Shown piece by piece: positions 43,571 through 62,025 of a DNA stretch of 64,000 bases. This DNA comes from a virus, in IMG/VR virus record IMGVR_UViG_3300027710_001279, positions 1-64,000 of that record; one strand, 5' to 3'. The notes beneath the pieces were generated by a model. It was not told the origin of the DNA and searched no databases. It was given only the letters and a program-made list of their open reading frames with translations. The position numbers and the translations under genes were made by a program. Each line of letters begins with the position of its first letter. Positions within the stretch are counted from its first letter, which is position 1.

Positions 43571-43579
43571 GAGGCAATT

Positions 43580-44116: not shown

Positions 44117-44129
44117 AAAGGAGGGCAAG

Positions 44130-44735: not shown

Positions 44736-44736
44736 T

Positions 44737-44853
44737 ATGATCTACATTACTAACAAATACAATTCCATCCGACTACCCAATGAACCGGGTATGTTAGATT
44801 GGTTATTAGAAAATTATCCTAATTCAGGATATCACGTAGTAGAGATAAAATAA
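44737..44853 (+). CDS. Small protein, 38 residues
   Basis: A short frame tightly fitted between the phosphoesterase stop (1-nt gap) and the kinase start (1-nt gap). Peptide: MIYITNKYNSIRLPNEPGM then a LDWLLENYPNSGYHVVEI segment. Spacing supports it as real; function unknown. Confidence 0.5.
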   Translation: MIYITNKYNSIRLPNEPGMLDWLLENYPNSGYHVVEIK

Positions 44854-44854
44854 T

Positions 44855-45322: not shown

Positions 45323-45387
45323 TTCAATGGATAGAATGCTTGGCTTCGAACCAAGCGGTGTGGGTTCGATTCCTGCAGGACCGGCCA
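45313..45387 (+). tRNA. tRNA-Arg (TCG)
   Basis: Acceptor CGGTCCT/AGGACCG, anticodon loop CTTCGAA, encoded CCA. Separated from the main array and overlapping a coding 3' end. Confidence 0.94.
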
Positions 45388-47399: not shown

Positions 47400-48035
47400 A
47401 TGAACAAACTGTTTTGTCCTGTTAACTTAGATAAAAACTTTGTAGAGCCATGTGTTGCGTCATCATTAGATTATTGGCATGAAAAATACTATCCAAGAAT
47501 CTTAAAAGAAAATCTTAAACCGCATAATCTTTATGTTATGCCCGACGTACACAAAACTGAATATCAAGACTTGAAAAAATATTTTCATAAAGAACTCGGG
47601 TTAATATTAAAAAGTATAATTTTATTTCCTACCATTCCTAACAAGCTCAAAGATCCGCATAGAGACGGTCCACGATCAGATTATAGTTACAGCGCCATTA
47701 ATATTCCTGTGGCCAATACAAAAGGAACACTTCAGGTCTGGTGGCCAGATTTCGATGAATCAAGAGTCAAACAATTTAATTTAACACGCCCAGACGGAAC
47801 AAAGTCTATAGGATTTGATATTGTCCCAGAATGGAAAGAGGAAGAGTTTGATCAGGTTCCTAGTGATCATTCTTTAGAGTTGTTGTCTCCTCATTTGCTA
47901 AACACCAATGTTATTCATGGCGTAGATAATAGATCAAATAATGACTGGAGATTGGTTATGTCTTTGAGATTTATTGGTAACCCAAAACTAGAGCAAGTTA
48001 AAGAGCAGATTTTAAACACAAGAGGCCATCTATGA
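47400..48035 (+). CDS. Fe(II)/2-oxoglutarate oxygenase-like protein (1 of 10 in this island)
   Basis: A 211-residue protein with a probable double-stranded beta-helix. DPHRDGPRSDYSYSAINIPV holds the HxD metal pair, and NVIHGVDNRSNNDWRLVMSLRF the distal His and a co-substrate Arg. The LNxx/IPVANTKGTLQVWWPDF middle is a strand-rich core. Family-level call from motif order; substrate unknown. Overlaps the next gene by 4 nt. Confidence 0.65.
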   Translation: MNKLFCPVNLDKNFVEPCVASSLDYWHEKYYPRILKENLKPHNLYVMPDVHKTEYQDLKKYFHKELGLILKSIILFPTIPNKLKDPHRDGPRSDYSYSAINIPVANTKGTLQVWWPDFDESRVKQFNLTRPDGTKSIGFDIVPEWKEEEFDQVPSDHSLELLSPHLLNTNVIHGVDNRSNNDWRLVMSLRFIGNPKLEQVKEQILNTRGHL

Positions 48036-48688
48036 GTGTTGATGTAAAATTAATGACCATTGATGATATTTTATCTATCCCCAGTGACCTATTAACTACT
48101 AACCATGTTGCAGGATCTAAAGTATTAGAGTTAGACGAAACAGTTTGGAAAAGAAGAGCTATAGGTTATGCAACACACGGTTCTGTAGAAGTATTAGGGG
48201 CATACGATGCTGACAAAATTTTAGGTGTTGCGTTTGTTATATGGCCTAAACTTTCTCCTGCATATATGATTTCTAACCTAAGACTGTTTCATAACTTTCC
48301 TGGGTTTCCTGTAGATAAGAATGGGTATGGTGCATTGTTAAGCACTGCAATTGAAAAGGGCGAATCTCAAGGTAGATGGGAATTTTATATGAGACGAAAC
48401 TTAGATTATGGCAGATGGTTTAACAGAAGATACCAAAAGAAAACTTATGAAAACATTCCTATTAGCAAAAAATATCTAAGATCTGTTGAAGAAATAATTC
48501 CTGCTAATAATCAATCAAAATGGATTGCTACTAATACATTATGTAATAATGAAATTGTCGGTGAAGACACAATTATTGTAAAATATTTTTGTCCACAGAA
48601 CGAACGTAACACAAATTACATTCCCGAAGCTATGAGAATAAAGCACAAAAATACTCTTGATGTATTAACTAATTATAAACCAGAGTAG
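48032..48688 (+). CDS. GNAT-like protein, 218 residues
   Basis: The order VEVLGAYDADKILGVAFVIWPKLSP (central strands), then DKNGYGALLSTAIEKGESQGRWEFYMRRNLDYGRWFNRRY (helix and last strands) resembles a GNAT fold, but the acetyl-CoA loop (Q/RxxGxG/A) is not clear. Similar in layout to the protein at 55177-55788. Convergent with the next gene, 16-nt overlap. Acyl-acceptor unknown. Confidence 0.5.
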   Translation: MSVDVKLMTIDDILSIPSDLLTTNHVAGSKVLELDETVWKRRAIGYATHGSVEVLGAYDADKILGVAFVIWPKLSPAYMISNLRLFHNFPGFPVDKNGYGALLSTAIEKGESQGRWEFYMRRNLDYGRWFNRRYQKKTYENIPISKKYLRSVEEIIPANNQSKWIATNTLCNNEIVGEDTIIVKYFCPQNERNTNYIPEAMRIKHKNTLDVLTNYKPE

Positions 48689-49416
48689 TCTATGTAGGTA
48701 GTAGTCGGTGAGTTGTCCACCATTACCTTGTCCTTAAATTTAGAAATACTGCGTTCTAGTAAATCTCTATATTTTTTTACGTCTAGCACATACCTCCAGA
48801 ATACAAATATAATTTTTTTGTATGCTGGATCGTAGGTACTACCGTGTCTCACTCTTAAGTTATTGAATACAAATGAATTGGTTTCGGATAAATCCGGGTA
48901 TATTCTTTCCTTTGATTCATTTTCAAAAAACAAAGTTGGGGCAGGGTTCTCATCATGAATCATTAACCTAAACGACAAGGGAGTATCAAAATAATAACTA
49001 TCATCTCTATGAAGTAGTATAGGTTTATAGCTTGACCAGATGTTTATCCAGTGTAATTCTTTAAATGGCAAATAGTCTAAAATCTGTTCTCGTAACGCTG
49101 GAAATTTTAAAAACATATCTTCTTGAAGATTTATATTCCATCTTGTTTTTTCAGGAATACCCCATTCTGTATAATCTACAGAAAGGAAAGGACTACTTCC
49201 AGGAATTGCGTTGCTTTCTTTATCGTTGTAAAGTCGTTTTATAGGAAGTGCTTTTTCAAAATACCAGCTAGCAAAGTTGTCGTCTTTTATAAGGGGAATA
49301 TCTAAGGGAACAAAACAATAATTTTTATAGTCTTGTTCTAACTCTTTAATCTCGTTGTCAAGGTTTGGAAAATACTTAAACTGATTCTCCCTCGCACTAT
49401 TGGGGATTTTATTCAT
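48673..49416 (-). CDS. Fe(II)/2-oxoglutarate oxygenase-like protein, paralogue of 61225
   Basis: A 247-residue protein. ILLHRDDSYYFDTPLSFRLMIHDENP holds the HxD pair, and NLRVRHGSTYDPAYKKIIFVFWRY the distal His with basic residues. The gene at 61225 shares FVPLDxPLIK, IWSxxxPxxxHRDxxxxxDxPLxFRxxxxDxNPxxTL and RxxHGSTYDPxYKK in the same order, so the two are duplicates. Its ATG overlaps the desaturase stop by 4 nt, suggesting that they work on the same lipid or run together. Confidence 0.68.
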   Translation of the reverse strand: MNKIPNSARENQFKYFPNLDNEIKELEQDYKNYCFVPLDIPLIKDDNFASWYFEKALPIKRLYNDKESNAIPGSSPFLSVDYTEWGIPEKTRWNINLQEDMFLKFPALREQILDYLPFKELHWINIWSSYKPILLHRDDSYYFDTPLSFRLMIHDENPAPTLFFENESKERIYPDLSETNSFVFNNLRVRHGSTYDPAYKKIIFVFWRYVLDVKKYRDLLERSISKFKDKVMVDNSPTTTYIDYSGL

Positions 49417-50174
49417 TTTTTTATTTTTTCAATAAACCATGCGGCAATATCAGGTTCGTTATCTTTTTCACCAAACTTATATTTTCCGGGCCACTTATGA
49501 TGATTATTATGATATCCTGCACCTAATGTAATATAGGCTAACCAATGAACATTTTTACTGTTGTCAGGAGTATTGTAATTTTGATAACCTTTAGTAGGAT
49601 GATGGAAATAAACGTTACCCAAATCTTCAATCAGGTTAATCAAGAACCACCCGCCTAATGTCATAAAAAACAAACCAAAATAAATGTCTATTAAGTATGC
49701 TACGCCAACTGAACCCCAATAAAATTTATGGTAATGTCTATGAATCAGTTTTGCTAGAGAGTTTTTATAGAGCCAACGGGGAGCAACACCTGGAACAGTT
49801 TCTATAGGCTTAAATATTTGCCATCCAATAAATGCATTAAAAAATCCATTAACTGGACTATGCACATCTTGTTTAGTATCTGAAAACCTATGATGGTGAT
49901 AGTGTAATCCGGCCCAGAAGATAGGACTACCCTGTCCTGTAAGTGCTCCACAGATTATAAATGCATTTTTCCAAAAGTTGTTTACTTGAAAACTGCTGTG
50001 AGATATGTATCGATGATAACCTATTGCCGCTCCAAAAATTCCTAATATATAGAAACCTAAAAACGCATAGAGTAAAAATAACCATTGAAAATCTGTAAAC
50101 AGAACATAAAACGATACAGCGGTCAACAAAAAGTTAGGTAACAGAATTTTAAAAAAGTGACTGTTTAATTGCAT
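49413..50174 (-). CDS. Fatty-acid desaturase
   Basis: A 253-residue membrane desaturase with four hydrophobic segments and His boxes GYHRYISH, HYHHHRFSDTKQDVHSP and GYHNNHHKWPG. The TK-D-x-HSP extension after box II is typical of delta-9 acyl-CoA/acyl-lipid desaturases. Start 50174 (MQLNSHFFKIL) is chosen because a GTAAATAT octamer ends 4 nt before it, as at several other genes here; in-frame ATGs at 50195 and 50207 would lie upstream of that element. Confidence 0.88.
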   Translation of the reverse strand: MQLNSHFFKILLPNFLLTAVSFYVLFTDFQWLFLLYAFLGFYILGIFGAAIGYHRYISHSSFQVNNFWKNAFIICGALTGQGSPIFWAGLHYHHHRFSDTKQDVHSPVNGFFNAFIGWQIFKPIETVPGVAPRWLYKNSLAKLIHRHYHKFYWGSVGVAYLIDIYFGLFFMTLGGWFLINLIEDLGNVYFHHPTKGYQNYNTPDNSKNVHWLAYITLGAGYHNNHHKWPGKYKFGEKDNEPDIAAWFIEKIKK

Positions 50175-50178
50175 ACGG

Positions 50179-50186
50179 ATATTTAC
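50179..50186 (-). promoter_or_regulatory. Late-type octamer GTAAATAT, leaderless start
   Basis: Minus-strand GTAAATAT, 4 nt before the desaturase ATG (50174); it decides the start. Confidence 0.58.
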
Positions 50187-50217
50187 CTTGGCCATATATG
50201 AGTGCATAATTAATAGT

Positions 50218-51651
50218 ATGACTACTGTTGATTTTTTAATTTTTTCCGGAATAGGTTCTGCAGAGGAAACTTTTCATAAAACTCCAAGTAAACCCTGGAG
50301 ATCAATAGGTCCTTCAAAAATTGCCAATAGTCTTAGAAATAATGGATACACTGTTCAAATAATTAACTTTGCTACACTCCTTACCTACGAACAACTTTAC
50401 AAGATCTCAAAACAGTATGTTGGGCCTAAGACGTTATTAGGAGTTAGTACTACATTTTTATACAGCGAATATAATTCTAGTAATGCATACGAAGGTCTAC
50501 AAAATGTAGTAAAGCAATTGAAACAAGAAGTAGGATCTAAAGTTATTTTAGGTGGTCCTAGTGCTCATGCCTATAAAACATATTTCAATGCAGATTATAT
50601 TGTTAACGGATATTCCGAAAATAAAATATTAGATTTATTTGATCAAATTTTTAATTACGGTATAAAAAGAAAAACACGGTTAGATTGGGATATAAAAAGT
50701 TGTAACCATCGATGGCATGAAAGTGATCGGCTACAACCAGGAGAATCTATTCCTCTTGAAATTGGGCGAGGATGTATTTTTACCTGCAAGTATTGCAAGT
50801 TTGATATGTTAGGAAAGAAGCGAGGGGAGTATGTCCGTGACATGTCTATGATTAAAGACGAAATAATTGAGAATTTTGAAAAATATAAGATTACCAATTA
50901 TATGATAATGGATGATACGTTCAACGACGATGTTTATAAATTAGAAGACTGGTGCAAAATGGTAGACTCCTTGCCATTTAAGATACAGTATACTGCATAT
51001 TGTAGAGCAGATCTTCTTTGGAGGTATCAAGATATTAGCAGAGAATTATATAGGACGGGCCTAATTGGATCGACATTAGGAATAGAATCAATGAATACCT
51101 ATGCTTCTAAAATAGTAGGAAAAGCATGGAGTGGAAAACATGCAAAAGATTTTATTCCTTATTACATACATGATATATGTAAAGGTAGAACACTTACACA
51201 GATTAATTTTATTATAGGACTCCCTGGAGATACACTTGATGATATATGGAATTGGGTACATTGGGCAAAAGAAAATAAAATTCCCACAGTCCATGCTCAG
51301 CCGTTGGTAATTCGACCACCGAGATTATTTCCAGATGATCCAGTGTTTAGTGAATTTGACAAAGATGCAGAGTCTAAATATGGTTATAGCATTCCCAACG
51401 ATAAACGACCTTATGTATGGAAAAACAACATTATGACTTGGTTTGACGCCAGAAAAGAATATCGTAAAATTTATGATTATATTTCTAATAATTTTTGTGA
51501 CTTATCATGGCACGGATTTTCTTCATTAAGTCTAGGATACTCTGTTGATGAAATACAGAGCACATCGTTGATAAAATTTTATGAAGACCCAGTATACACT
51601 GCTAGATCGCAAGCCTGGCTTGATAACTATGTAGAGTCTTTTAATGGTTAA
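50218..51651 (+). CDS. Radical-SAM protein with B12-binding-like N-terminal domain
   Basis: A 477-residue protein. Residues about 1-140 look like the Rossmann-type B12-binding domain of B12-dependent radical SAM enzymes (PSKIANSLRNNGYTVQIINFATLL ... VILGGPSAHAY), but without the DxHxxG cobalt-ligand motif. The radical-SAM core follows with GCIFTCKYCKFD (Cx3Cx2C cluster) and GSTLGIESMN, then FIIGLPGDTLDDIWNWVHWAK, the typical barrel end. Such enzymes methylate or rearrange unactivated carbons. It is likely part of the metabolic island. Start 50218 avoids overlap with the divergent promoter region. Confidence 0.85.
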   Translation: MTTVDFLIFSGIGSAEETFHKTPSKPWRSIGPSKIANSLRNNGYTVQIINFATLLTYEQLYKISKQYVGPKTLLGVSTTFLYSEYNSSNAYEGLQNVVKQLKQEVGSKVILGGPSAHAYKTYFNADYIVNGYSENKILDLFDQIFNYGIKRKTRLDWDIKSCNHRWHESDRLQPGESIPLEIGRGCIFTCKYCKFDMLGKKRGEYVRDMSMIKDEIIENFEKYKITNYMIMDDTFNDDVYKLEDWCKMVDSLPFKIQYTAYCRADLLWRYQDISRELYRTGLIGSTLGIESMNTYASKIVGKAWSGKHAKDFIPYYIHDICKGRTLTQINFIIGLPGDTLDDIWNWVHWAKENKIPTVHAQPLVIRPPRLFPDDPVFSEFDKDAESKYGYSIPNDKRPYVWKNNIMTWFDARKEYRKIYDYISNNFCDLSWHGFSSLSLGYSVDEIQSTSLIKFYEDPVYTARSQAWLDNYVESFNG

Positions 51652-51684
51652 CGTTTTAAAAAATTACCCCCGTGATATTTAAAA

Positions 51685-51692
51685 CTAAATAC
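51685..51692 (+). promoter_or_regulatory. Late-type octamer CTAAATAC
   Basis: CTAAATAC 20 nt before the desaturase ATG at 51713; an ATTTAAAACTAAATACC context with no clear Shine-Dalgarno. Confidence 0.5.
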
Positions 51693-51712
51693 CAAAATAC
51701 TTAAAAGATACC

Positions 51713-52492
51713 ATGAAAAAAATTATCGAAACTCTGTTACACTATCAGACATTATACGTAGTATGGGGAAACATGATTCTGTTTGCTGGTTTACTATATT
51801 CTCTCCCATGGTCATGGTGGCTTCCGATCTCATTGATTGCTAGTTACTATGTTTGCACAGCAATTTCTGAAATTACAGTTCATCGATATTTTAGTCACAA
51901 ATCTTACGAAGTTAGTGACTTTGGTGAAAAAGTTTTACTATTTTTAGCTTTATTTGTAGGACAAGGATCTATTGTGCATTGGGTAGCAGTACATCGTCAA
52001 CACCATGCATTTGAAGATACTCCTAAAGACCCGCATAGTCCCTTATTTGTTCCTCTCTGGAGATTATTTTTAGGAATTTTCCCTCGATTAGATTACAAAC
52101 GATCGTTAGTTGCAGACCTGTTAAGAAGTAAGCATAAGAATTATATTCTGTTTGAAAAAAAATATTACCTTTTATTGTGGACTGCAATATGGACAATAAG
52201 TTTTTTAATTAGTCCTTGGTTAATGTTGTTTATTGTAGGCGGATCAGTTCTTTGGTTTTTAGGAACAGCTCTTATTAATTTTATTGGGCATAATTCGAAT
52301 AATGAAAAACGATTTAAAAATGATGTAGGATATAACAGCAGTTGGTTAAATCTTGCAACAGGTGCTGGGAATCATAACAATCATCATGCAAGACCGCAAA
52401 GTCATACATTTAAAGTAGATAAAGAAATTGATATCTATGGCAGTTTAATCGAACTCTACGCAACTAAGTTAAAAATTGAAAGAACTAATTGA
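51713..52492 (+). CDS. Fatty-acid desaturase
   Basis: A 259-residue membrane desaturase: TVHRYFSHKSYE (box I), VHRQHHAFEDTPKDPHSP (box II) and GNHNNHHARPQS (box III), with four hydrophobic stretches. Closest in style to acyl-CoA delta-9 desaturases. Its stop region overlaps the upstream edge of the LnmK-like gene, so the two are likely co-translated. Confidence 0.9.
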   Translation: MKKIIETLLHYQTLYVVWGNMILFAGLLYSLPWSWWLPISLIASYYVCTAISEITVHRYFSHKSYEVSDFGEKVLLFLALFVGQGSIVHWVAVHRQHHAFEDTPKDPHSPLFVPLWRLFLGIFPRLDYKRSLVADLLRSKHKNYILFEKKYYLLLWTAIWTISFLISPWLMLFIVGGSVLWFLGTALINFIGHNSNNEKRFKNDVGYNSSWLNLATGAGNHNNHHARPQSHTFKVDKEIDIYGSLIELYATKLKIERTN

Positions 52493-52499
52493 AGTTGGC

Positions 52500-53186
52500 A
52501 TGCCGCATTTAGTTTACCATGGGTTAGATCCCGTATGGTTACTGAAGTATATAGGGCATAAACATTGGAAATTAATAGAACATGTCCGTCCTATTAATAA
52601 AGATAACCAACGACTCTATGCAAGTTTTTTTGCAGCCAAGATAGATTTTTTAAACGGGCAACAATCAATTACTGAAAAAAGCACAATAGAGATTAGCAGT
52701 GAAGTTTTTAAATTTAATAATCTAATCTACAGATCATCACACACGGTTAATGATATCTGTGTAACATTAGACAGTATTTTTGTTAGAAAAGATAAAGTAG
52801 CAGGTCTAATTAAAGACGAACCTGCTTGGTCAAGTACTGATATTCCATATACAAAAGATACATTCTTAGAAGAACATAGTGAACTAAAAAGAAAATTAAT
52901 GAATGTTGACTTTGCTACAGCAAAAGAGTTGGTGTTTAATCCAGCAGTATTGTTTAACGGAGTTAAAATACTTTATTGTGCTAATTATCTAAGTCTAGCA
53001 TTGTTAAGCGAATGGATCACTTATCAAAGTTTACTTGACCCTATTAAAAAAATAGAAATATTTTGGTTTAAGAATATTAGTGTTGGGGATAAAGTATATG
53101 GAACTACTTCAAACAAAAATAACGTATTTGAAACAGTATTAATTTCAAATAATAGAGCAATGGGTTTCTGCAGAATTTACAGATGA
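52500..53186 (+). CDS. LnmK/Pnap_2097-like hotdog-fold biosynthetic protein
   Basis: A 228-residue protein from ATG 52500 (a TTG at 52476 would add 8 residues). The start MPHLVYHGLDPVWLLKYIGHKHWKLIEHV resembles the opening of the Pnap_2097/LnmK family (MPxLxxxGLSExWLLKxxGDxHW), whose known member LnmK is a bifunctional acyltransferase/decarboxylase on acyl-carrier-protein substrates. Later FKNISVGDKVYGTTSNKNNVFETVLISN gives hotdog-like strands. Next to a desaturase it points to acyl-chain chemistry. Exact reaction uncertain. Confidence 0.65.
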   Translation: MPHLVYHGLDPVWLLKYIGHKHWKLIEHVRPINKDNQRLYASFFAAKIDFLNGQQSITEKSTIEISSEVFKFNNLIYRSSHTVNDICVTLDSIFVRKDKVAGLIKDEPAWSSTDIPYTKDTFLEEHSELKRKLMNVDFATAKELVFNPAVLFNGVKILYCANYLSLALLSEWITYQSLLDPIKKIEIFWFKNISVGDKVYGTTSNKNNVFETVLISNNRAMGFCRIYR

Positions 53187-53584
53187 GTTGGCTGTTCTAA
53201 GTTTAGAGAGTCTATCAATACCAGCTCAGTAGTCTCTTTTTCCATTCCGCCAAATATTCTTTCATGTTGTTCTTGATCGATGTTTATATTGTTAGCATCA
53301 AAAACAAATCCATATTGGGTTAATGTTTGGAATTTATCATATAGATTCTTTAATAAAAGAAAATTATAGCTAGGATTAATCATTACAAAAATAACCACGC
53401 GATACAACACAAGATCTAAATGTGTTGTCCAACCATAGATTTTTCCTTGGTAGTTATCTGGAAATAAATTTAGTATATTAAAATCTGGATCATATTGTTT
53501 CATGACAGACGTAAAGTTGTCAGTATCATCGACATCAATTACCGGAAGCTGTGCATATAATTCAATAACGGAGTATGGTTTCAT
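53177..53584 (-). CDS. Tandem paralogue 3 of an unknown family, 135 residues
   Basis: MKPYSVIELYAQLPVIDVDDTDNFTSVMKQYDPDFNILNLFP ... KIYGWTTHLDLVLYRVVIFVMI ... Compared with the two genes upstream, it shares the order: N-terminal strand, an (A/S)V(M)KQ-x-x-P-D/N-x-x-F helix, a K/E-I-Y/H-G/A-W/L turn, then a strand pair and a C-terminal Asp/Leu-rich strand. Divergent copies of one small fold. No function known. Convergent with the LnmK-like gene (10-nt overlap). Confidence 0.6.
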   Translation of the reverse strand: MKPYSVIELYAQLPVIDVDDTDNFTSVMKQYDPDFNILNLFPDNYQGKIYGWTTHLDLVLYRVVIFVMINPSYNFLLLKNLYDKFQTLTQYGFVFDANNINIDQEQHERIFGGMEKETTELVLIDSLNLEQPTHL

Positions 53585-53586
53585 AA

Positions 53587-53961
53587 TTAATCAAATAAAT
53601 TTCTTATTTTAGAAAACTGGCGAACATGCAAAGTATCATGGGTTGAAAATTTATCTAAAATTTGTTCCCGAGTTAACAATATTTTTTCTACGGTAATTGC
53701 AGGAGTTAAACCAGTAACTGCGCTTAAAAATTCTGATAATATAAAATCTACAGAAGACGACTCTACAAAATAATAGTTTACCTTTGTTGATAACCCTTCA
53801 GTTGTTCTTATCCAGGCATATAAAATTTCTGCAAAATGTAACGGTGTAATAAATTCACCAAAATTAAAATTAGGATTTAACTGTTTCATAGCTTCGTGAT
53901 AAGACATACTCGAATGACTTTCGGGTAGTGTGCAGGTAGTTCTGATAACTGAAAAGTCCAT
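53587..53961 (-). CDS. Tandem paralogue 2 of an unknown family, 124 residues
   Basis: MDFSVIRTTCTLPESHSSMSYHEAMKQLNPNFNFGEF, then EILYAWIRTTEGLSTKVNYYFVESSSVDFILSEFL, then ILLTREQILDKFSTHDTLHVRQFSKI. The central YYFVESSSVDFI lines up with YYFVEDDDFIEV of copy 1. An ATAAATAC octamer precedes it within the end of copy 1. Function unknown. Confidence 0.62.
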   Translation of the reverse strand: MDFSVIRTTCTLPESHSSMSYHEAMKQLNPNFNFGEFITPLHFAEILYAWIRTTEGLSTKVNYYFVESSSVDFILSEFLSAVTGLTPAITVEKILLTREQILDKFSTHDTLHVRQFSKIRNLFD

Positions 53962-53973
53962 TTTAATTCCTTA

Positions 53974-54360
53974 TCAGGTATTTATCAAATTTTCAAATCT
54001 CTCAGGGCTTAGAATTTGCACCTCGTGATTTCCTTGACTAATAATATCCAACAGCTCTTGACCGGTAAAATTAAGATTATCAACTACAGTAAAAGGCATT
54101 TCTGTATGTTTAAAGACTGATAAATGTTTAACAATGTGATCTCTTACTTCTATAAAATCGTCATCTTCAACAAAATAGTAGCTTTCTACAAAAAAATGTT
54201 CACTAATATTCCTAATTAATCCGTGTATTTTATTATGTGCTATAAGATATCCAAATGTTTCTACAAATCCCCAATCTGGGACTACTGCGTTAACCGCTTC
54301 AGTATATGCCATTTTACGATACCGTTCCGGAATAGTAGTCGTGAATTTTAATACTTTCAT
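53974..54360 (-). CDS. Tandem paralogue 1 of an unknown family, 128 residues
   Basis: MKVLKFTTTIPERYRKMAYTEAVNAVVPDWGFVETFGYLIAHNKIHGLIRNISEHFFVESYYFVEDDDFIEVRDHIVKHL, then FTGQELLDIISQGNHEVQIL, here described as three blocks: an N-terminal strand-helix, the central YYFVEDDD strand, and a C-terminal helix-strand. The same three blocks recur in the two following genes. Overlaps the desaturase by 4 nt. Confidence 0.62.
   Translation of the reverse strand: MKVLKFTTTIPERYRKMAYTEAVNAVVPDWGFVETFGYLIAHNKIHGLIRNISEHFFVESYYFVEDDDFIEVRDHIVKHLSVFKHTEMPFTVVDNLNFTGQELLDIISQGNHEVQILSPERFENLINT
53978..53985 (-). promoter_or_regulatory. Late-type octamer ATAAATAC inside paralogue 1
   Basis: Minus-strand ATAAATAC, about 16 nt before the ATG at 53961, followed by AAGGAATT as ribosome-binding site. 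Confidence 0.5.
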
Positions 54361-55187
54361 GCCTTCAACCTATTTTTGGAATCGCCGTCTTTGTAAATAT
54401 TAATTATAAATCCAGCTGGATCAAATTCCCACCATTTTCCACTAGCACCTGTACCAAAATGGCTTGCGCCAGGGCGGCCGTGGTGATTATTATGCCAGCA
54501 CTCGCCTAGCACCAACGGAAATAAAATAGGAACATTTAAACTCTTATCATTAGTCTTAAAATTTTGATACCCTAAGCCTTTCATATGAAATAAGCTATTG
54601 GTAATATTATATGTAATTAATGTAATCATTGCAGGCATCATACTAAAAAATAAGAATAACTTTGGGCTAATTAAAAATAACACAAAATTAAATGCTAGAT
54701 AAAGTTTCACATAGTGTGTATGCACAAATACTATTTCTTTGTCTCTAATTAAATCAATGGCATATTTAGGATTAATTTTTTCGCCGTCGAGTTTATACAT
54801 CCACAATATAAAACTATGCCAGAAACCGTGAATAGGACTATGCGGATCATTAGGAGTATCAGGATGTCTGTGATGGTATCCTCGATGCACAGCAGTCCAT
54901 AAAATAGGACTTCCCTGGCCTGCCATAGCACCTGTCCATAGTAATAATCGATGTTTCCATTTTGATTCTAACACAAAACTCTTATGACAGAAATATCTAT
55001 GATAGCCGGCTGTAATTCCTAATACATTAAAAATAAAATATCCTGTTAAGAAATAAAACAAATTTGCTAATTCAAAATTAGCAAAAAATGAATATGTAGC
55101 ATAGATACCTATTAAAATCATAGGAGTGATAGCCCCTAGCAAAACTGGTACTTCTAATAAATTTTTCCAAATAGGTCTAAACATTTT
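54357..55187 (-). CDS. Fatty-acid desaturase
   Basis: A 276-residue membrane desaturase: GYHRYFCHKSF (box I), VHRGYHHRHPDTPNDPHSP (box II, one residue longer than the usual HxxHH) and CWHNNHHGRPG (box III). The N-terminus from 55187 begins MFRPIWKNLLEVPVLL; a longer form from 55220 is possible but overlaps the upstream gene more. Part of a minus-strand run with GNAT-like and oxygenase genes. Confidence 0.87.
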   Translation of the reverse strand, partial: KMFRPIWKNLLEVPVLLGAITPMILIGIYATYSFFANFELANLFYFLTGYFIFNVLGITAGYHRYFCHKSFVLESKWKHRLLLWTGAMAGQGSPILWTAVHRGYHHRHPDTPNDPHSPIHGFWHSFILWMYKLDGEKINPKYAIDLIRDKEIVFVHTHYVKLYLAFNFVLFLISPKLFLFFSMMPAMITLITYNITNSLFHMKGLGYQNFKTNDKSLNVPILFPLVLGECWHNNHHGRPGASHFGTGASGKWWEFDPAGFIINIYKDGDSKNRLKA

Positions 55188-55788
55188 GTATTCTCGTGCC
55201 TGTTCTAACAATGTAATCATCCTGTAATGGTCTTCTACCCATCATTCCCCACACCCAGTCTACCTCAGGTTTTGTTCCTGCAGGAATTGTAACTGTAGTT
55301 TCATATGTATAACTGTTATTTATTTCAGGTATCATACGTTGATAAAACGCATCAAACTTGCTCCAGCGACCTGGTTTAATTAGACTATGCCATGCCCTAA
55401 GGCCACGTAATTCGCATTCTCTAAACATAAATTCCCATAAAGGTTTCATATATCGTCTTAGAGCATTTTTGCTAGGATCAGATTTAAGATAAACAATGAC
55501 CCAATCTTTGTTGTATGGAGAAGGTAAATCGCATCTCCATCCTACCATAGCCATCATTGTGTCATTTTCAAATAGACCATACAGGTAGTGATAGTCATCT
55601 CCGTTAAGATAGTATCTCTTCATCCCTAATATCCAAATTTTCCAAAACTCGTCTATTTGTTCTAAAGATTCATCAACATGGCTGTTCGGCCTTTGCTTTG
55701 CTCTTTCTGCTTCAGCAAGATGACATTTCCAAAACAATTTTTCTATTTGGTCTAGGTGTGATAAATCTAGTCTAATGATTTCGGCCAT
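55177..55788 (-). CDS. GNAT-like protein, 203 residues
   Basis: IRLDLSHLDQIEKLFWKC (N-terminal helix region), DYHYLYGLFENDTMMAMVGWRCDLP (central strands), WVIVYLKSDPSKNALRRYMKPLWEFMFRECELRGLRAWHSLI (cofactor-side helix and final strands) follow GNAT order. The classical QxxGxG loop is not obvious. Compare the gene at 48032. It may N- or O-acylate a product of the neighbouring enzymes. Overlaps both neighbours. Confidence 0.55.
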   Translation of the reverse strand: MAEIIRLDLSHLDQIEKLFWKCHLAEAERAKQRPNSHVDESLEQIDEFWKIWILGMKRYYLNGDDYHYLYGLFENDTMMAMVGWRCDLPSPYNKDWVIVYLKSDPSKNALRRYMKPLWEFMFRECELRGLRAWHSLIKPGRWSKFDAFYQRMIPEINNSYTYETTVTIPAGTKPEVDWVWGMMGRRPLQDDYIVRTGTRIQNV

Positions 55789-56312
55789 TCTTTAAATACC
55801 TCAGATTCGCCTGTAAATAAAATATCTTGACATGCTACTTTTGGATCACCTTGGCTAACACAAATTAGTTCTTCAAGCAAGATAAATTTAAGCTCACCAG
55901 TATTTAAATAATTTCTAACATTGATCAGAGTATTCCTGGAATTGTGCTCTCGAGAAATAAAAATTGTTTTGGGATTTAAATTTTTATTAAGCCAATGTAT
56001 TTGGCTTTCTACCATTTCTTTAAATAGTGGGTCTATTTCTTTAGATATGTGATCTTGCCTATTTAATTTCCATGTACGGTTGAGTATTCTATAACAATCT
56101 TTAGGCCAACTTGTTCGTCTAAAAATTGTGCTAAAAAGATAGGGTTTGTTATTTTTATAACCTATTGAAAAGGCTGTTTGATCTTGATAGTTAAAATTCT
56201 CAACTTTATAATTTTCTATTATCTTTCCAGAATACATACCAATTAATTTTTTTCTAGATATATCGAATAACGATAAGAGGTCTGTATCAGTATGATCAAA
56301 TGTAACAATCAT
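55767..56312 (-). CDS. Unknown protein, 181 residues, acetyltransferase-like
   Basis: IGMYSGKIIENYKVENFNYQDQTAFSIGYKNNKPYLFSTIFRRTSWPKDCYRILNRTWK shows strand-rich halves; later NPKTIFISREHNSRNTLINVRNYLN resembles the penultimate strand and helix of GNAT-like proteins, but no cofactor loop is seen. The name is tentative. Overlaps its neighbours by 22 and 4 nt, so it is part of the same unit. Confidence 0.45.
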   Translation of the reverse strand: MIVTFDHTDTDLLSLFDISRKKLIGMYSGKIIENYKVENFNYQDQTAFSIGYKNNKPYLFSTIFRRTSWPKDCYRILNRTWKLNRQDHISKEIDPLFKEMVESQIHWLNKNLNPKTIFISREHNSRNTLINVRNYLNTGELKFILLEELICVSQGDPKVACQDILFTGESEVFKEWPKSLD

Positions 56313-56920
56313 GGTTCTATTAAGTTTTGAGCAGAGAGCCTCTCAAACATTTCTTCTTTAGAAATAGGGCGAACCGCTGATTTGCCAGTGTCTGCTAAGA
56401 TAATGGTTTTAAATATTCTCACACTTATACAAAATCGCCAATTATTGCTTTTGCTCATCATCCTATGGGGTCCATCAATATTAACAAAACAAGGTTTAGA
56501 AAGTTCAACAGACTCTACTAATTCAACCTCTTCTTCAGTCCAGGTCACACCCCCTCGGGTATTAAATGTTTGATACCATACTCCTTCTTTTTTAGACTTA
56601 AACCATTGCATATAGGTATCTTTCCAATTAATAAACCAGTTTAATCCCCAGGTGTCTTGTAATGGTAAAACTCCGTCTAAGTGTATTGGTCCACTGCTAT
56701 GAGGCCTGAGTTTAAACCAATTTGCTCTAATAACTTCATTTTTACCTAAAAGGTGGTTGTCAGTAAAAAAAGAATTAAAGTAAGGAGGTATCTCAATATC
56801 ATTTAATTGTCGAAACGGATGTTTGTATTCTTTAACAGCATTGTAGCTTACATCAAAGAATGAGCTAGGCAATCCTTCAAAATTGTAAGGGTCAGTTTTT
56901 AAATAATAAAAGTTTTTCAT
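56309..56920 (-). CDS. Fe(II)/2-oxoglutarate oxygenase-like protein
   Basis: A 203-residue protein. GPIHLDGVLPLQDTWGLNWFINW has the HxD pair, and IDGPHRMMSKSNNWRFCISVRIF the distal His and Arg. The same block order (HxDGxL...WGxNWxxxW ... xxPHRxxxxxxxWxxxVR) appears in the next gene (56917), so these two are close paralogues. Substrate unknown. Confidence 0.68.
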   Translation of the reverse strand: MKNFYYLKTDPYNFEGLPSSFFDVSYNAVKEYKHPFRQLNDIEIPPYFNSFFTDNHLLGKNEVIRANWFKLRPHSSGPIHLDGVLPLQDTWGLNWFINWKDTYMQWFKSKKEGVWYQTFNTRGGVTWTEEEVELVESVELSKPCFVNIDGPHRMMSKSNNWRFCISVRIFKTIILADTGKSAVRPISKEEMFERLSAQNLIEP

Positions 56921-57459
56921 TCGATGATATATTCTTTAAAAGTTTTTAATGCAACATCCCAATTAGTAGGGACAACTGGTCTCACAGTTAAACACCATCT
57001 ATCAGAGTCTGAAAAGTTTTCTACTCTATGCGGAACTCCTGTTTTAATAATTACAGGTTTAGTTATTTTAACAGACTCTAATAATGTTACATCATCGTCA
57101 TCCCAAAACAAGTAAGGAGTTTTAGCATTAGTCTTTTTAAAATTTTCTAATTTAAGTTTAGGACTATTTGGTTTCCACCAACTCATTAAATGATCATTCC
57201 CCCATACCCAATTCACGCCCCATTGCTGATGAGTTAAGAATCCGTCAACATGAATAGAACATTTATTATGAGGGGGCGTTCTAAATATCATTGCTTTAAT
57301 GTTTAAACCTAAATCGTTAAAAAATTTTATTAAATCAGGATTTAAAGATTTTTCAACATCAATTTTAAGAGTTATATGAGAATTTCCAGTATCTTTAGGA
57401 AACTGAAAATCACTTCTTAAGGGAGAAACTGATAAGTTGAGCTCTTTGTAATTATACAT
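56917..57459 (-). CDS. Fe(II)/2-oxoglutarate oxygenase-like protein
   Basis: A 180-residue protein from ATG 57459 (1 nt after the upstream stop; a longer form from 57480 is possible). CSIHVDGFLTHQQWGVNWVWG holds HxD, and KTGVPHRVENFSDSDRWCLTVRP the distal His and Arg. Paralogue of 56309. Overlaps it by 4 nt. Confidence 0.68.
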   Translation of the reverse strand: MYNYKELNLSVSPLRSDFQFPKDTGNSHITLKIDVEKSLNPDLIKFFNDLGLNIKAMIFRTPPHNKCSIHVDGFLTHQQWGVNWVWGNDHLMSWWKPNSPKLKLENFKKTNAKTPYLFWDDDDVTLLESVKITKPVIIKTGVPHRVENFSDSDRWCLTVRPVVPTNWDVALKTFKEYIIE

Positions 57460-57460
57460 A

Positions 57461-58171
57461 TTAATAAACAGGTTGATCAATGCCTAGCTGTTTTCTAAAC
57501 TCGTCAGTAAAAATACCATCAACCCTTAAGGTATATTGTAATTTGTTAGCTCTATCAACACCGTGTACATCAAGATCATTAAAAAATGCTGAACTAGAGT
57601 TAACTGGTATTTTTAATGCTGCGCTTTCATCATAGATATAAAATCGTTTTTCCTTAGTAGGATTAAACCATATAAACTCGTTAGAATGTTCTTTGTATTC
57701 AAAGTTGTCTCTGTGTGGATACATGTCACAGTCGTTTTCTGTTAACCAAAATAATACTCTTCCAATTTCTTTAAAAGGTAATTTTTCTAGCCAGAGTTGA
57801 AGTCCTGGGAAAAAGTTGCTGTTGTCATGCCATTTGGTCTTACTAGCATACTTTTTATTTTCAAAAGCGTTCCAAGAGTTATCAACCATATCTCTTATAT
57901 AAACTACACTACTTCCACAATACCATCCAGTTTTTAATTTAAGATACAGTGGGCCTGCTTCCCTAGGTAAGGAGATAAACTTTTTAAATATTTCATTCTT
58001 TTCCTGGGGATCTAAGTATCTATCTAGGTGATTCTTTGCAGATGGCAAAACTGCTGTTAGTATTTTACTCTGAGCAATACCTGCACAAATTTCGTCGTGC
58101 AGATCTTCTAGACCAGCAATGTCTAGATAAGAATCGCAGTTAATATAAGGACTATTAACTATTCCTTTCAT
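57461..58171 (-). CDS. Fe(II)/2-oxoglutarate oxygenase-like protein
   Basis: A 236-residue protein with MYPHRDNFEYKEHSNEFIWFNP (HxD) and NDLDVHGVDRANKLQYTLRVDGIFTDEFRKQLG (distal His and Arg). It shares the opening (NCDSYLDIAGLEDLHDEICAGIAQSK), the FKEIGRVLFW motif and this whole ending with its neighbour at 58155 (LHREISIGIAKTK ... FKSIGRILFF ... RYTLRIDGTFTDELQEELG), a recent duplication. Confidence 0.7.
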   Translation of the reverse strand: MKGIVNSPYINCDSYLDIAGLEDLHDEICAGIAQSKILTAVLPSAKNHLDRYLDPQEKNEIFKKFISLPREAGPLYLKLKTGWYCGSSVVYIRDMVDNSWNAFENKKYASKTKWHDNSNFFPGLQLWLEKLPFKEIGRVLFWLTENDCDMYPHRDNFEYKEHSNEFIWFNPTKEKRFYIYDESAALKIPVNSSSAFFNDLDVHGVDRANKLQYTLRVDGIFTDEFRKQLGIDQPVY

Positions 58172-59036
58172 AATTCCAATTCCAAGTGTATCCGTCTACT
58201 AGACCTAATTCTTCTTGAAGCTCATCAGTAAACGTGCCGTCAATACGTAGTGTATATCTAAAATTAGGCTCAGGATCTACTCCGTGGTAGTCTCTGTTGT
58301 TAAAGAAATAACTTCTTGCGCCCTGTTCTAGATAAACTTTTTCTTTGGTAATTTCGTCATAGACAAAGCTAGGGCGCCAGCCTGGAGTAAAGAAAAGATT
58401 GATGTTGTGATCTTTGTGTTCTGCTACTACTCCATCTCGATGCACAATAACACCAGCATTAGGATATGTAGTAAAAAATAAAATTCTACCAATGCTCTTA
58501 AAAGGGAGAGCATTGATGTATTCGATTAATTTAGGAAACAGTTTTGCATCTTCTGTCCAGAGAGACTTTTGGTCTGTAGCTTTGTCAAAGAACCCAGCTT
58601 CTTTAATGTAAACTGTAAAGAACCAAGGAATCAAAGATCCGGCTGAAAAGTAAAAATACTTATAAACTGATTTGAATCGATCTTCGGGTTTTGAAGTTTC
58701 TAATATTTGTTTAATAGACTCTTTGTGGAAACCGTCCGGATCATATTTTTCTAGCTCTCGCAACATTTCACTCCACCCATCTTTCATTCCGTATTTTTCT
58801 CTTATCTCAGGAGGATGTCCTCCAGTAGCAGTTCCCATTCTGTAATTCTTAGTCTTGGCAATCCCTATCGATATTTCTCTATGAAGTTCTAAATCCATAG
58901 AATGATCTAAGTATTTGTCCATGTTAAGCATAGGATGCCGATCTTTGCCAACACCTTTGATACCATGTTCTTGGTGGTGAAAAGTTTGCCAGTTTCTCCC
59001 CTGGTGTGGGAAATACACATATTCTTGATCTTTCAT
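58155..59036 (-). CDS. Fe(II)/2-oxoglutarate oxygenase-like protein
   Basis: A 293-residue protein: VIVHRDGVVAEHKDHNINLFFTPGWRPSFVYDE carries HxD, and NRDYHGVDPEPNFRYTLRIDG the distal His and Arg. Longer N-terminal part than its paralogue at 57461, with a Gly/His-rich FPHQGRNWQTFHHQEHGIKG start. Overlaps the paralogue by 17 nt. Confidence 0.7.
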   Translation of the reverse strand: MKDQEYVYFPHQGRNWQTFHHQEHGIKGVGKDRHPMLNMDKYLDHSMDLELHREISIGIAKTKNYRMGTATGGHPPEIREKYGMKDGWSEMLRELEKYDPDGFHKESIKQILETSKPEDRFKSVYKYFYFSAGSLIPWFFTVYIKEAGFFDKATDQKSLWTEDAKLFPKLIEYINALPFKSIGRILFFTTYPNAGVIVHRDGVVAEHKDHNINLFFTPGWRPSFVYDEITKEKVYLEQGARSYFFNNRDYHGVDPEPNFRYTLRIDGTFTDELQEELGLVDGYTWNWNYERNS

Positions 59037-59045
59037 TGTTAACCT

Positions 59046-59915
59046 TTATTCAGCTTTTAAAATTTCTAGCCCGGAAAATACATCACCGTCAATCAGCATT
59101 TGAAACGGATGTTTACCCCAAAATTCATTTGATACCCAGCATTGATTATTTTCATCATAATCAAACCAAGGACTAAATCCCAGAACAAAATGTACCCTGT
59201 CAATTGGGGCAGGGTTAGTTAATAACACCCTATGAGCAATATTGGTATCCCAAGTATATACTTTGCCTAATTCTAGGTGGTAAACATCATTACCTTCCAT
59301 TTCAAACATATATTCTGGAGATGTTGTAATAGGGATGTTAATTCTAATATTTTGACAAATAATTTCGTCCCTGTGCCAATTTAATTCTGCTAAACTTGAA
59401 TCAGGAACATGATTTTTTAAAACGCCCAATCTACTACGAATCATAGTTCTCTTTACTTTACTATCTAAAAACTCTTTTATATATCCGTAATTTGCCAATG
59501 TAGTTCTTTTTGTAAATCCATATGAGTCAAAATACGTGTCTTTTAACTGATTGTAATTTGATGTTTGATTCCAAAAGAATTGATCTCTTGCATTTTTAGG
59601 AGCTCCTAAAGTACTCTCATCTGGATCTATGCCATCCTTATGTCTAGGATTGCAAACAAAACTTAACCCTCCGTAGATTTCACTAGGTCCTTTTACACTG
59701 TTCCATCCTCTAAATTTTAATTGGTCTAATACTTCGAGAGTATCTTTTCTAAGACGAACAAAATCAGTATCGTGCAATTTCATTTCAACCTTGCGCCACT
59801 TAACCTGATTTTTTATTTCTTCCCATTTTTGATAGGATCCAGTTTTACGAAAAATATATTTTTCGGTTTGGATATCCTCTGGAATTTCGTCTCGGTGTAT
59901 TGTAAATTTAGGCAT
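59046..59915 (-). CDS. AspH-like Fe(II)/2-oxoglutarate oxygenase
   Basis: A 289-residue protein from ATG 59915, chosen because an ATAAATAT octamer ends 4 nt before it; the longer frame from 59960 would span the promoter. ELNWHRDEIICQNIRINIPI (HxD), VYTWDTNIAHRVLLTNPAPIDRVHFVLGF (distal His and Arg) follow the aspartyl/asparaginyl beta-hydroxylase layout. Substrate unknown. Confidence 0.7.
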   Translation of the reverse strand: MPKFTIHRDEIPEDIQTEKYIFRKTGSYQKWEEIKNQVKWRKVEMKLHDTDFVRLRKDTLEVLDQLKFRGWNSVKGPSEIYGGLSFVCNPRHKDGIDPDESTLGAPKNARDQFFWNQTSNYNQLKDTYFDSYGFTKRTTLANYGYIKEFLDSKVKRTMIRSRLGVLKNHVPDSSLAELNWHRDEIICQNIRINIPITTSPEYMFEMEGNDVYHLELGKVYTWDTNIAHRVLLTNPAPIDRVHFVLGFSPWFDYDENNQCWVSNEFWGKHPFQMLIDGDVFSGLEILKAE

Positions 59916-59919
59916 ATCG

Positions 59920-59927
59920 ATATTTAT
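59920..59927 (-). promoter_or_regulatory. Late-type octamer ATAAATAT, leaderless start
   Basis: Minus-strand ATAAATAT, 4 nt before ATG 59915; it pairs with the plus-strand copy at 59947 as a divergent promoter pair. Confidence 0.65.
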
Positions 59928-59946
59928 TTGCCTATACCACGGCCTC

Positions 59947-59954
59947 ATAAATAT
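59947..59954 (+). promoter_or_regulatory. Late-type octamer ATAAATAT, leaderless start
   Basis: Plus-strand ATAAATAT, 4 nt before ATG 59959, with no Shine-Dalgarno possible. Confidence 0.65.
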
Positions 59955-59958
59955 TGAC

Positions 59959-60660
59959 ATGGCCTACCCTATATTCAACGAACCCACACACATGCTCTTT
60001 AATCAATCAGTCGATGCAGACTGGGCATTAAAAGAATGCCGATGGATTATTGATAATCTTACTCCCAGTGACTACGCAAACGCTAGTGGCAAGTTTTTTA
60101 AAAATTACGTACAATGGTCATTCCATAAAACCAGCGAACAACCTTTGATTAAAAAATTTACTGAGATATTAGAAAATAGCAAAGAAGATTTCCGTAAGGT
60201 ATATAATAGAAATTTAGATTTTGAATTTGTCTATCTTGCCTATGTTAAGGATATTGCAGAAGAATGTTCAATTTGGCATAGAGATTACTTTTTAATCAAC
60301 GGTCAAGCACATTTAAGTGTGTTAGGGAACGGAGACCTGTTATGTTACGACTATGAAAATAATCTACACAACATTAAAGTTCCAAATGGAACTTGCTGGT
60401 TTGTTAACGGTAGTAACTTTAATCATAAGATCAATACAGGTGTAGGCGAAAGATTTGAAATATGTGCTCCTATAAGTCCCCGCAAAGAAATTGTAGAGCC
60501 AAGGATGTTAGGAGTTAACCCTAACGATCCTTTGAAATTAGTAAACAGCAGTATACCTGCCTATGTAGAAGGACAGCGTAGATTAAAAGAACAAACGTTG
60601 GCTAATGTAAAAAAGGGGAAGGATACCCACGGCGGAGTTGTTGCAGACTTTAGCACATAA
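59959..60660 (+). CDS. Fe(II)/2-oxoglutarate oxygenase-like protein
   Basis: A 233-residue protein: CSIWHRDYFLINGQAHLSVLGNGDLL (HxD), GTCWFVNGSNFNHKINTGVGERFEICAPI (distal His and Arg), then a Pro/Arg-rich tail PRKEIVEPRMLGVNPND. Similar single-domain oxygenases are frequent in T4-like cyanophages. Divergent from the AspH-like gene, sharing the promoter region. Confidence 0.68.
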   Translation: MAYPIFNEPTHMLFNQSVDADWALKECRWIIDNLTPSDYANASGKFFKNYVQWSFHKTSEQPLIKKFTEILENSKEDFRKVYNRNLDFEFVYLAYVKDIAEECSIWHRDYFLINGQAHLSVLGNGDLLCYDYENNLHNIKVPNGTCWFVNGSNFNHKINTGVGERFEICAPISPRKEIVEPRMLGVNPNDPLKLVNSSIPAYVEGQRRLKEQTLANVKKGKDTHGGVVADFST

Positions 60661-60661
60661 T

Positions 60662-61228
60662 ATGCTGTATAAAAAAATTCCGTTAACCTACGAATCTGAT
60701 CAGATTGCAGAGTATTATATGACACATATATCAAATACAATGTTTAGCGTAGGAGAACTTTCAGATATTGAAAGATTTAATCATAGAGGATCTGCAACTT
60801 TAGGAAGGAATTTTTTTAAAAAATTTCCTATATTAGAATCAAATCTCGATAAGATGTTTGGTAAAGATAATTACATAGGAAGATTTTTTGCAACTAGGCC
60901 AAATAGTAAAGGGTTTGTGCATATCGACATGGCACATAGTGAGCTTAATCCTAGATACTGGTCTTTAAACTTTCCTGTGTTTAACTGTCAACACAACTAC
61001 CATGAATGGTTTTCTACCAATTCTGAGCCGGACCTTATTTCTAAAGAATTTAATTCTTGGTTTTGGACTACTGATAACAATGTAAAATTAGTTGATAAAC
61101 TAGAATTAAGTGAACCATATATTTTAAGTGTATCGGTTCCGCATAGAATAAACAACCCAACTAACGAAGTGCGTGTAGTATTTGCTGTTAGAACCGTAAA
61201 CAATGAAGAAACATTTGAGTTCTTATGA
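60662..61228 (+). CDS. Fe(II)/2-oxoglutarate oxygenase-like protein
   Basis: A 188-residue protein from ATG 60662, directly after the previous stop. KGFVHIDMAHSELNPRYWSLNFPVF holds HxD, and LSVSVPHRINNPTNEVRVVFAVRT the distal His and Arg. The VPHR motif links it to the 56309/56917 pair. Overlaps the next gene by 4 nt. Confidence 0.67.
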   Translation: MLYKKIPLTYESDQIAEYYMTHISNTMFSVGELSDIERFNHRGSATLGRNFFKKFPILESNLDKMFGKDNYIGRFFATRPNSKGFVHIDMAHSELNPRYWSLNFPVFNCQHNYHEWFSTNSEPDLISKEFNSWFWTTDNNVKLVDKLELSEPYILSVSVPHRINNPTNEVRVVFAVRTVNNEETFEFL

Positions 61229-62025
61229 ATGAAAAAACATTAGTCACTGAATCTAGAAAACGAGAATCTCTAAGACGATGGGGAAGCTCGGAGTTTAATC
61301 AACTGGAACAAAAGTATGGAAAATATTTGTTTGTTCCGTTAGACGTTCCTTTGATAAAATCTAATAAACACAACGAGTTAGTCACATTCTATTACCAACA
61401 TGCTAAGTTAGCTGAACGTATAAAAGAAGACATTGCAGGATCAATGGATGATACTTATAGAGCTAAGTTTCTTTCTTTAAATAGTTCAGATACAGAAGCA
61501 GCTGATGTATGGACAAAAACTTATAAGCCAGAATTCGAAAACACTTTTAAAGATCTATTTGATCAAATTTACGAATACCTTCCCATACAAAAGGATACAA
61601 AAATCAGTTATACAATTTGGTCAACTCAGAGTCCTGTAGTAATGCATCGAGATCACACATCATTGCTTGATCTTCCTTTAAATTTTAGAATTAAGTTATA
61701 TGACAATAATCCGTCCGAAACTTTATTAATTAAAAATTGTTTAACAGACGGAGTTTATCAATACCAAAAAAATTGCTCACCTATACTTTTGCCTGAAGAA
61801 ACAAACACCTGGACATGGAACAATGCCAGGATAGTTCACGGTAGTACGTATGATCCTTGTTATAAAAAAATGCTAATGATATTAGAGGATTTAAAAATAG
61901 ACTGGATTAAGTATGAAACATTACTAGAAAAAAGTTTAATAAAATATAAAGACCACGTATTAGTCGATAATACATATCAACACTATGATTATTTTAACAA
62001 GGAATACTATGAACAACAACGTTAA
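61225..62025 (+). CDS. Fe(II)/2-oxoglutarate oxygenase-like protein, paralogue of 48673
   Basis: A 266-residue protein. PVVMHRDHTSLLDLPLNFRIKLYDNNPSETLLI (HxD), WNNARIVHGSTYDPCYKKMLMIL (distal His). Compared with 48673 it also shares FVPLDVPLIK near residue 37 and the C-terminal LLEKSLxKxKDxVxVDN. Last oxygenase of the island. Overlaps the small downstream gene by 17 nt. Confidence 0.68.
   Translation: MNEKTLVTESRKRESLRRWGSSEFNQLEQKYGKYLFVPLDVPLIKSNKHNELVTFYYQHAKLAERIKEDIAGSMDDTYRAKFLSLNSSDTEAADVWTKTYKPEFENTFKDLFDQIYEYLPIQKDTKISYTIWSTQSPVVMHRDHTSLLDLPLNFRIKLYDNNPSETLLIKNCLTDGVYQYQKNCSPILLPEETNTWTWNNARIVHGSTYDPCYKKMLMILEDLKIDWIKYETLLEKSLIKYKDHVLVDNTYQHYDYFNKEYYEQQR

Follow-up and report, generated by a model that had tools for sequence, protein, structure and literature searches.

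The question raised by this locus is what could be made by the products of a 14.6-kb block of genes, at positions 47400-62025 of virus record IMGVR_UViG_3300027710_001279, in which ten proteins with an HxD...H...R arrangement are encoded together with three fatty acid desaturases, three acetyltransferase-like proteins and a radical SAM protein. The block is called the island here, and the window is the whole stretch of DNA analysed, namely bases 1-64000 of the 73,042-base record. We propose, with about an even chance of being right, that the island encodes a pathway for acyl tailoring and N-acylation, in which unsaturated or hydroxylated acyl groups are made and attached to an amine. The proposal builds on the observed gene content, two oxygenase folds, the desaturase family, a conserved gene core, an acyl carrier protein (ACP) in the islands of relatives, and the co-occurrence of these genes.

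The island is compact. Adjacent genes share 2-44 bp or leave no more than 12 bp between them, with a 61-bp gap as the sole exception, and throughout a minus-strand run of 11 genes (59960 to 53177) neighbours overlap or are separated by no more than 12 bp. The GC content of the region is about 33-34%, compared with about 40% elsewhere. A first-pass annotation of this DNA had noted the tight packing, the ten HxD genes and the desaturase genes at 49413, 51713 and 54357, and all of these open reading frames (ORFs) were confirmed, the start given as 60662 being an inner ATG of ORF 60638. The late-type promoters that it had also placed here were rejected: the strict motif TATAAATA is absent from the island and occurs five times in the 64-kb window, below the 7.4 expected.

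Using BLAST and clustering, the ten HxD proteins were divided into four families, oxA to oxD, and an orphan (Table 1). In each of them, a distal H is followed by R or K 9-13 residues later. This pattern alone proves little, because 9-48% of the shuffled forms of these proteins contain it too, and the weight for the oxygenase assignment lies on column invariance and structure models rather than on the bare motif. In the family alignments, the HxD...H metal triad and the basic residue for 2-oxoglutarate (2OG) are conserved across divergent homologues as invariant or near-invariant columns: H136, D138, R150 and H191 are invariant in oxB, with K201 nearly so; H199, D201, H251 and R264 in oxC; H196, D198, H243 and R255 in oxD; and D79 in oxA, where H77 and R161 are nearly invariant. 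Alignments and models were needed because Pfam, PHROGs and PDB sequence searches with the HxD proteins returned little besides weak matches to the Asp/Asn beta-hydroxylase family PF05118; 58155 and 59046 had no match among 50,697 annotated phage records. PF05118, which includes LpxO/OlsC-type enzymes, shares the HxD...H...R arrangement and is weakly matched by oxD and some oxA members, but the island proteins of the window stay below the family cut-off (18 bits for 59046, compared with 22.6). An eleventh HxD protein is encoded outside the island (window 36763-37248, plus strand), and its PF05118 match is also below the cut-off (E 5e-4).

In Foldseek comparisons (TMq about 0.4-0.5), the AlphaFold model of 56917 (oxA; pLDDT 90.5) matches JmjC hydroxylases/cupins and MINA53/NO66, and the model of 48673 (oxB; pLDDT 89.5) matches ALKBH2/PHD2-type oxygenases, with ALKBH2/3 as its top PDB matches. 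The oxB model also resembles a viral protein annotated as phytanoyl-CoA dioxygenase (TM 0.80, 30% identity). From these models, oxA and oxB, or six of the ten HxD proteins, are confidently predicted to have double-stranded beta-helix (DSBH) oxygenase-like folds, and the earlier concern that most HxD proteins might lack a beta-helix did not materialize in the modelled families. By profile comparison, oxC is linked to both families (oxB-oxC 97%, oxA-oxC 88%), and oxD may be linked tentatively (oxA-oxD 69%). Oxidation dependent on Fe and 2OG is the predicted activity of the HxD proteins.

All three desaturases are above the Pfam cut-off for PF00487, and the profile of their family scores 1.3e-38 against solved SCD1, with nine invariant histidines (H74, H79, H112, H116, H117, H212, H243, H246 and H247); by these profiles they are assigned to the SCD1 acyl-CoA desaturase family. 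A fourth SCD-type desaturase is encoded outside the island, at window 23100-23804 on the minus strand. The three acetyltransferase-like proteins (48032, 55177 and 55767), termed GN here, form one homologous group (profile probability 94-97%); they are putative GNATs, and that part of the first-pass label is weak. The radical SAM assignment of 50188 was upheld (PF04055 above cut-off, with a weak B12-binding domain, PF02310), and among NCBIfam models it comes closest to TIGR04072, labelled 'lipid biosynthesis', with a score far below the cut-off. The supposed LnmK-like hotdog protein, 52476, does resemble the LnmK/Pnap_2097 family (2e-20), but it scores 73 bits compared with a cut-off of 125. 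Upstream, where a QueC-like PP-loop enzyme and a P-loop protein had been suggested, 46224 gives weak PP-loop matches only and 45397 has no Pfam match.

Relatives of the island were collected by scans with 58155 (17 loci) and 54357 (25 loci). The core order oxB(n)-GN-GN-desaturase-oxD-oxC recurs in these relatives, the two GN genes are fused in three of them (L026, L031 and L034), and the island is often located near conserved phage genes (43580, 44106, 44855 and 62333 families). Strong matches to the T4-type capsid protein Gp23 are found in four large relatives (243-608 kb) and a partial match in a fifth; Gp23 is absent from the 73-kb fragment under study. Desaturase and oxygenase genes are clustered in five large relatives, G003, G004, G005, G007 and G008 (permutation p 0.0024 or lower, 40-kb window), and single members of the island families are scattered in the most distant T4-like relatives (G013 and G015). 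In the closer relatives the genes are found together, so the case that would have refuted the first-pass idea, independent occurrence in related phages and never together, did not arise. Among 115 non-redundant viral loci, GN is present in 34 of the 42 with a desaturase and in 2 of the 73 without. In loci fetched via oxD alone, the desaturase-GN association is again strong (17/24 vs 1/27, p 5e-7), as are those of oxB with the desaturase (p 2e-8) and with GN (p 3e-10); all of these comparisons ignore phylogeny. Each locus holds up to 13 oxygenases of four families, and because these genes vary in copy number and order, selection may favour a structurally diverse product, as in surface antigens. 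AMP-binding ligases were found in two relatives (1e-65, Pfam), and by reading of the sequences relatives also hold PP-loop enzymes, ATP-grasp, Rieske oxygenase, BKACE and transporter genes. In six relatives (L025, L026, L028, L029, L031 and L034), a DUF1289 mini-protein (PF06945, 5e-16) is encoded antisense between the oxB and GN genes (e.g. L031:8664-8831, minus strand).

Clustering of the small ORFs in the islands of relatives gave a family of 75-79 aa which matches the ACP family PF00550 (1e-8 to 1e-13), and its best members have 42-44% identity to E. coli AcpP. This ACP is present in seven of the 115 loci, all seven with both the desaturase and the GN family, and in L021, L044 and L061 it is located 0-60 bp from a GN gene and less than 700 bp from a desaturase gene.

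Members of oxD, oxB, the desaturase and GN families are also found in other, partly siphovirus-like phages, where they adjoin tail genes, a SPASM-type radical SAM gene and a gene for a tail-fibre-like protein ending in (Asn-Cys) repeats. A scan with the tail-type radical SAM protein gave more than 500 viral relatives; 80 radical SAM loci were fetched, and 68 of them pass a loose Cys-repeat screen, a few spurious frames included. Using a stricter screen (61 distinct termini), all eight termini with Lys in the last three residues are accompanied by GN and desaturase, whereas the 53 others, among them some spurious frames and three termini of cellular origin, have neither gene (p 3e-10, a value that overstates independence because the sequences are related). 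Judging from sequence, this combination of tail fibre and radical SAM looks like a maturation of the virion tip of the type known for ribosomally synthesized and post-translationally modified peptides (RiPPs), and no description of it was found in the literature searched, in which subscription journals were largely missing. Such Cys-repeat (NCNCNC...) proteins occur beside the SPASM-type radical SAM in L065, L066, L074, L075, L076, L080, L081, L099 and L121-L200 (e.g. L076:7858-8883 and L076:14908-16287). Achromobacter phage JWF has a SPASM radical SAM adjoining tail genes, but the five neighbouring proteins that were translated lack a Cys-repeat end. Cellular homologues of oxD, mostly from Bacteriovoracaceae, have PqqD-like proteins (PF05402 in L112) and radical SAM genes nearby, in some cases along with a glycosyltransferase and an ABC exporter, and in L108 and L116 also peptides of 62-64 aa ending ACACACGGPCY; these neighbourhoods resemble peptide maturation loci. 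A possible RiPP cluster in Bacteriovoracaceae and related metagenome-assembled genomes is found at L108:14900-15088, L116:16886-17080 and L112:9670-9975, and in L107 and L109.

The first-pass annotation had suggested a pathway for a lipid, a lipopeptide or surface tailoring, and this idea gains support from the ACP in the islands of relatives and from the association with Lys-ending tail-fibre peptides. Beyond these data, we infer what the product and the target are, which reactions take place and in what order, and that the transfer is of the GNAT type. In the proposed pathway, fatty-acyl groups would be carried on an ACP (encoded by the relatives themselves, or supplied by the host in the phage under study) or on CoA, and would be desaturated by the SCD1-type enzymes and oxidized by members of the Fe/2OG-type oxygenase set. 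Transfer of the acyl groups to an amine of the target molecule would then fall to the acetyltransferase-like proteins, which often form a tandem pair, and other oxygenases and the B12 radical SAM protein would modify the target, so that the oxygenases could act on the acyl chain, the acylated target, or both. The tail-fibre clusters of other phages point, by analogy, to a possible target, namely a lysine in a peptide of the virion or the surface. A bolder version, possible but doubtful, is that large phages run their own ACP-based pathway which lipidates and oxidizes a ribosomally made protein of the virion or surface. This would be a phage counterpart of lipopeptide biosynthesis that diversifies receptor binding.

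Several observations weigh against acyl tailoring and N-acylation, besides the relatedness behind the lysine statistic. The GN proteins match GNATs below threshold (PF13420, E 0.18; PF13527, E 0.085; 3n7z, E 0.15), and the GN family profile has no profile match to clear GNATs. From sequence, no substrate of the oxygenases can be read. No ACP is encoded in the 64-kb window, nor is a SPASM radical SAM like that in the tail-type clusters. Identity between tail-type and window-type proteins is only about 25-40%. A Cys-repeat tail-fibre substrate was sought in the 73-kb record, and neither such a protein nor a conserved precursor peptide candidate was found there.

The enzymes could instead provide acyl or amino-acyl decorations for the lipopolysaccharide (LPS) or O-antigen of the infected cell, blocking superinfection or altering receptors, and we consider this rather unlikely. 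At 26-36 kb the contig carries a sugar cluster with a dTDP-sugar isomerase, a DegT aminotransferase, an epimerase and GT17, the Bacteriovorax oxD homologues adjoin a GT1 glycosyltransferase gene and a pair of ABC-2 exporter genes, and the hypervariable island of pelagimyophages is tied to host recognition, LPS-related genes being present in some of these phages (PMC7029224). However, the sugar cluster is 10 kb off, beyond the tRNA array, and the Bacteriovorax-type loci fit peptide maturation too, because they also have PqqD-like and radical SAM genes and, in L108 and L116, Cys-rich short peptides. DNA or tRNA hypermodification, suggested by the ALKBH-like folds, the 28 tRNAs and the PP-loop enzymes, was set aside because membrane desaturases and an ACP do not fit it, even with ALKBH2/3 as the top PDB matches of oxB.

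Remodelling of host membrane lipids, by changed unsaturation or hydroxylation of host fatty acids or by aminolipid synthesis, appears unlikely. A GNAT, an Asp/Asn-hydroxylase-like protein and a di-iron enzyme would resemble the ornithine-lipid enzymes OlsB, OlsC and OlsE, and the SCD1-type desaturases and the weak PF05118 match of oxD point in the same direction, as do single phage desaturases, which two reports interpret as lipid auxiliary metabolic genes (PMC7678222; PMC7029224). A bulk lipid change hardly accounts for strong reshuffling and for loci with as many as 13 oxygenases from four families, however, and no OlsB-type family match was obtained. The island might also be no single pathway but a hotspot of independently acquired metabolic genes beside the tRNA array. 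Its lower GC content and the scattered members in distant T4-like relatives would agree with a hotspot, but the fixed core order, the fused GN pair and a strong co-occurrence that persists in loci retrieved with another gene argue against it and make it improbable.

For the acyl-tailoring pathway, the closest known systems include selidamides and other ribosomal peptides lipidated by a GNAT. In phaeornamide, a GNAT plus an Fe/2OG hydroxylase make an acylated peptide (PMC9505594), and in nostolysamides a tandem GNAT acylates Lys (PMC13060382); throughout this group, a GNAT-type transferase, sometimes tandem, puts a fatty acyl group on Lys or Orn. In contrast to selidamide-type RiPPs, the island is phage-encoded, and where a lanthionine synthetase or an NHLP precursor might stand, neither of which was seen, it has ten oxygenases along with three desaturases; no precursor peptide was found in the phage contig. 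Among aquatic phages, acyl-CoA desaturase and 2OGFeDO genes are found in Baikal Nitrospirota viruses, fonsimyophages and cyanophages (PMC7678222, PMC7029224), as single genes, whereas here they belong to a conserved island of many genes, which in relatives includes an ACP. The pelagimyophage hypervariable island likewise has variable cassettes with radical SAM genes, and a CsgF/CsgG pair as in the window, but the accessible text describes no core of desaturase, multiple oxygenases and ACP (PMC7029224). No description of a phage ACP/desaturase set was found in the literature searched, a result that is no proof of novelty with subscription journals largely missing. The island set of this freshwater phage is thus apparently undescribed, its precedents being single desaturase and 2OG-oxygenase genes. 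If the proposal is true, phages carry whole tailoring pathways with their own ACP and not only single metabolic genes, and such pathways evolve by reshuffling, like surface-antigen clusters. It would also offer a concrete function for the many 2OG-type oxygenases and desaturases of aquatic phages that lack an explanation, and possibly a new way for phages to modify virions or hosts chemically.

Table 1 Genes of the island and its flanks (window coordinates)
Feature	Position	Strand	Basis and remarks
oxA family HxD oxygenase-like	47400..48035	+	HRD at 87, distal H173/R184; similar to 60638 (1.8e-4); oxA profile match
GN16, acetyltransferase-like (GNAT-like, weak) family	48032..48688	+	Profile link to 55177/55767 family 97%; relatives adjoin ACP and desaturase
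oxB family HxD oxygenase-like	48673..49416	-	DSBH model pLDDT 89.5
SCD1-type fatty acid desaturase	49413..50207	-	PF00487 2.8e-11; family profile matches SCD1 1.3e-38
B12-binding-type radical SAM protein	50188..51651	+	PF04055 6.6e-9; PF02310 4e-5 and TIGR04072 5e-16, both below cut-off; start probably about 50218
SCD1-type fatty acid desaturase	51713..52492	+	PF00487 1.1e-12
LnmK/Pnap_2097-like (hotdog) protein	52476..53186	+	TIGR04099 2e-20, TIGR04098 1.5e-15, both below cut-off
Small protein 1 of divergent paralogous trio	53177..53584	-	BLAST 53177-53587 1e-3
Small protein 2 of the 53177-54360 trio	53587..53961	-	BLAST 53587-53974 2e-6
Small protein 3 of the 53177-54360 trio	53974..54360	-	BLAST
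SCD1-type desaturase, conserved core	54357..55220	-	PF00487 1.4e-13; GNAT-GNAT-DES order kept in relatives
Acetyltransferase-like GN4, conserved core	55177..55788	-	Weak GNAT, E 0.18; fused with partner in L026, L031, L034
Acetyltransferase-like GN4, partner	55767..56312	-	Gene order of relatives
oxA family HxD oxygenase-like	56309..56920	-	BLAST to 56917 2e-17
oxA family HxD oxygenase-like	56917..57480	-	DSBH model pLDDT 90.5
oxC family HxD oxygenase-like	57461..58171	-	BLAST to 58155 5e-27; invariant H/D/H/R
oxC family HxD oxygenase-like	58155..59036	-	17 viral relatives, 53-62%
oxD family, Asp/Asn beta-hydroxylase-like oxygenase	59046..59960	-	PF05118 E 0.0028, below cut-off; invariant H196 D198 H243 R255
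Orphan HxD protein	59959..60660	+	HRD107, H156, R165; no family found
oxA family HxD oxygenase-like	60638..61228	+	BLAST to 56309 2e-11; ATG at 60662 likely start
oxB family HxD oxygenase-like	61225..62025	+	BLAST to 48673 1e-41
Upstream pair, 46224 PP-loop (QueC/LarE/AsnB-like, weak) and 45397	45397..46784	-	Both families adjacent in L026 too
Conserved phage flank genes 43580, 44106, 44855, left of island in relatives	43580..45322	+	Neighbourhoods of relatives
Conserved right flank gene (metallopeptidase-like by eye)	62333..63067	+	Near island in relatives; no convincing family match

Small proteins of about 100-135 aa, such as the trio at 53177-54360, recur in many islands (the f10 family in L028 and L031) and by eye are possibly small alpha/beta barrels. 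In the rest of the window, 28 tRNA genes are located directly upstream of the island (37723-45387), and a cluster of sugar-nucleotide and glycosyltransferase genes (25526-36284) includes a transketolase-like pair at 31230-32314. A curli-type secretion set at 14215-19596 comprises CsgF (2e-12), CsgG (8e-51), curlin-like repeat proteins and a FecR-like protein; pelagimyophages have CsgF and CsgG, with CsgA and CsgB not identified there (PMC7029224). By eye, periplasmic solute-binding genes (Bug/TctC- and DctP-like) are present at window 3522-4490 on the minus strand and near the islands of L024, L036, L039, L082 and L110, and TctA-like transporter genes are found near the islands of L082 and L110.

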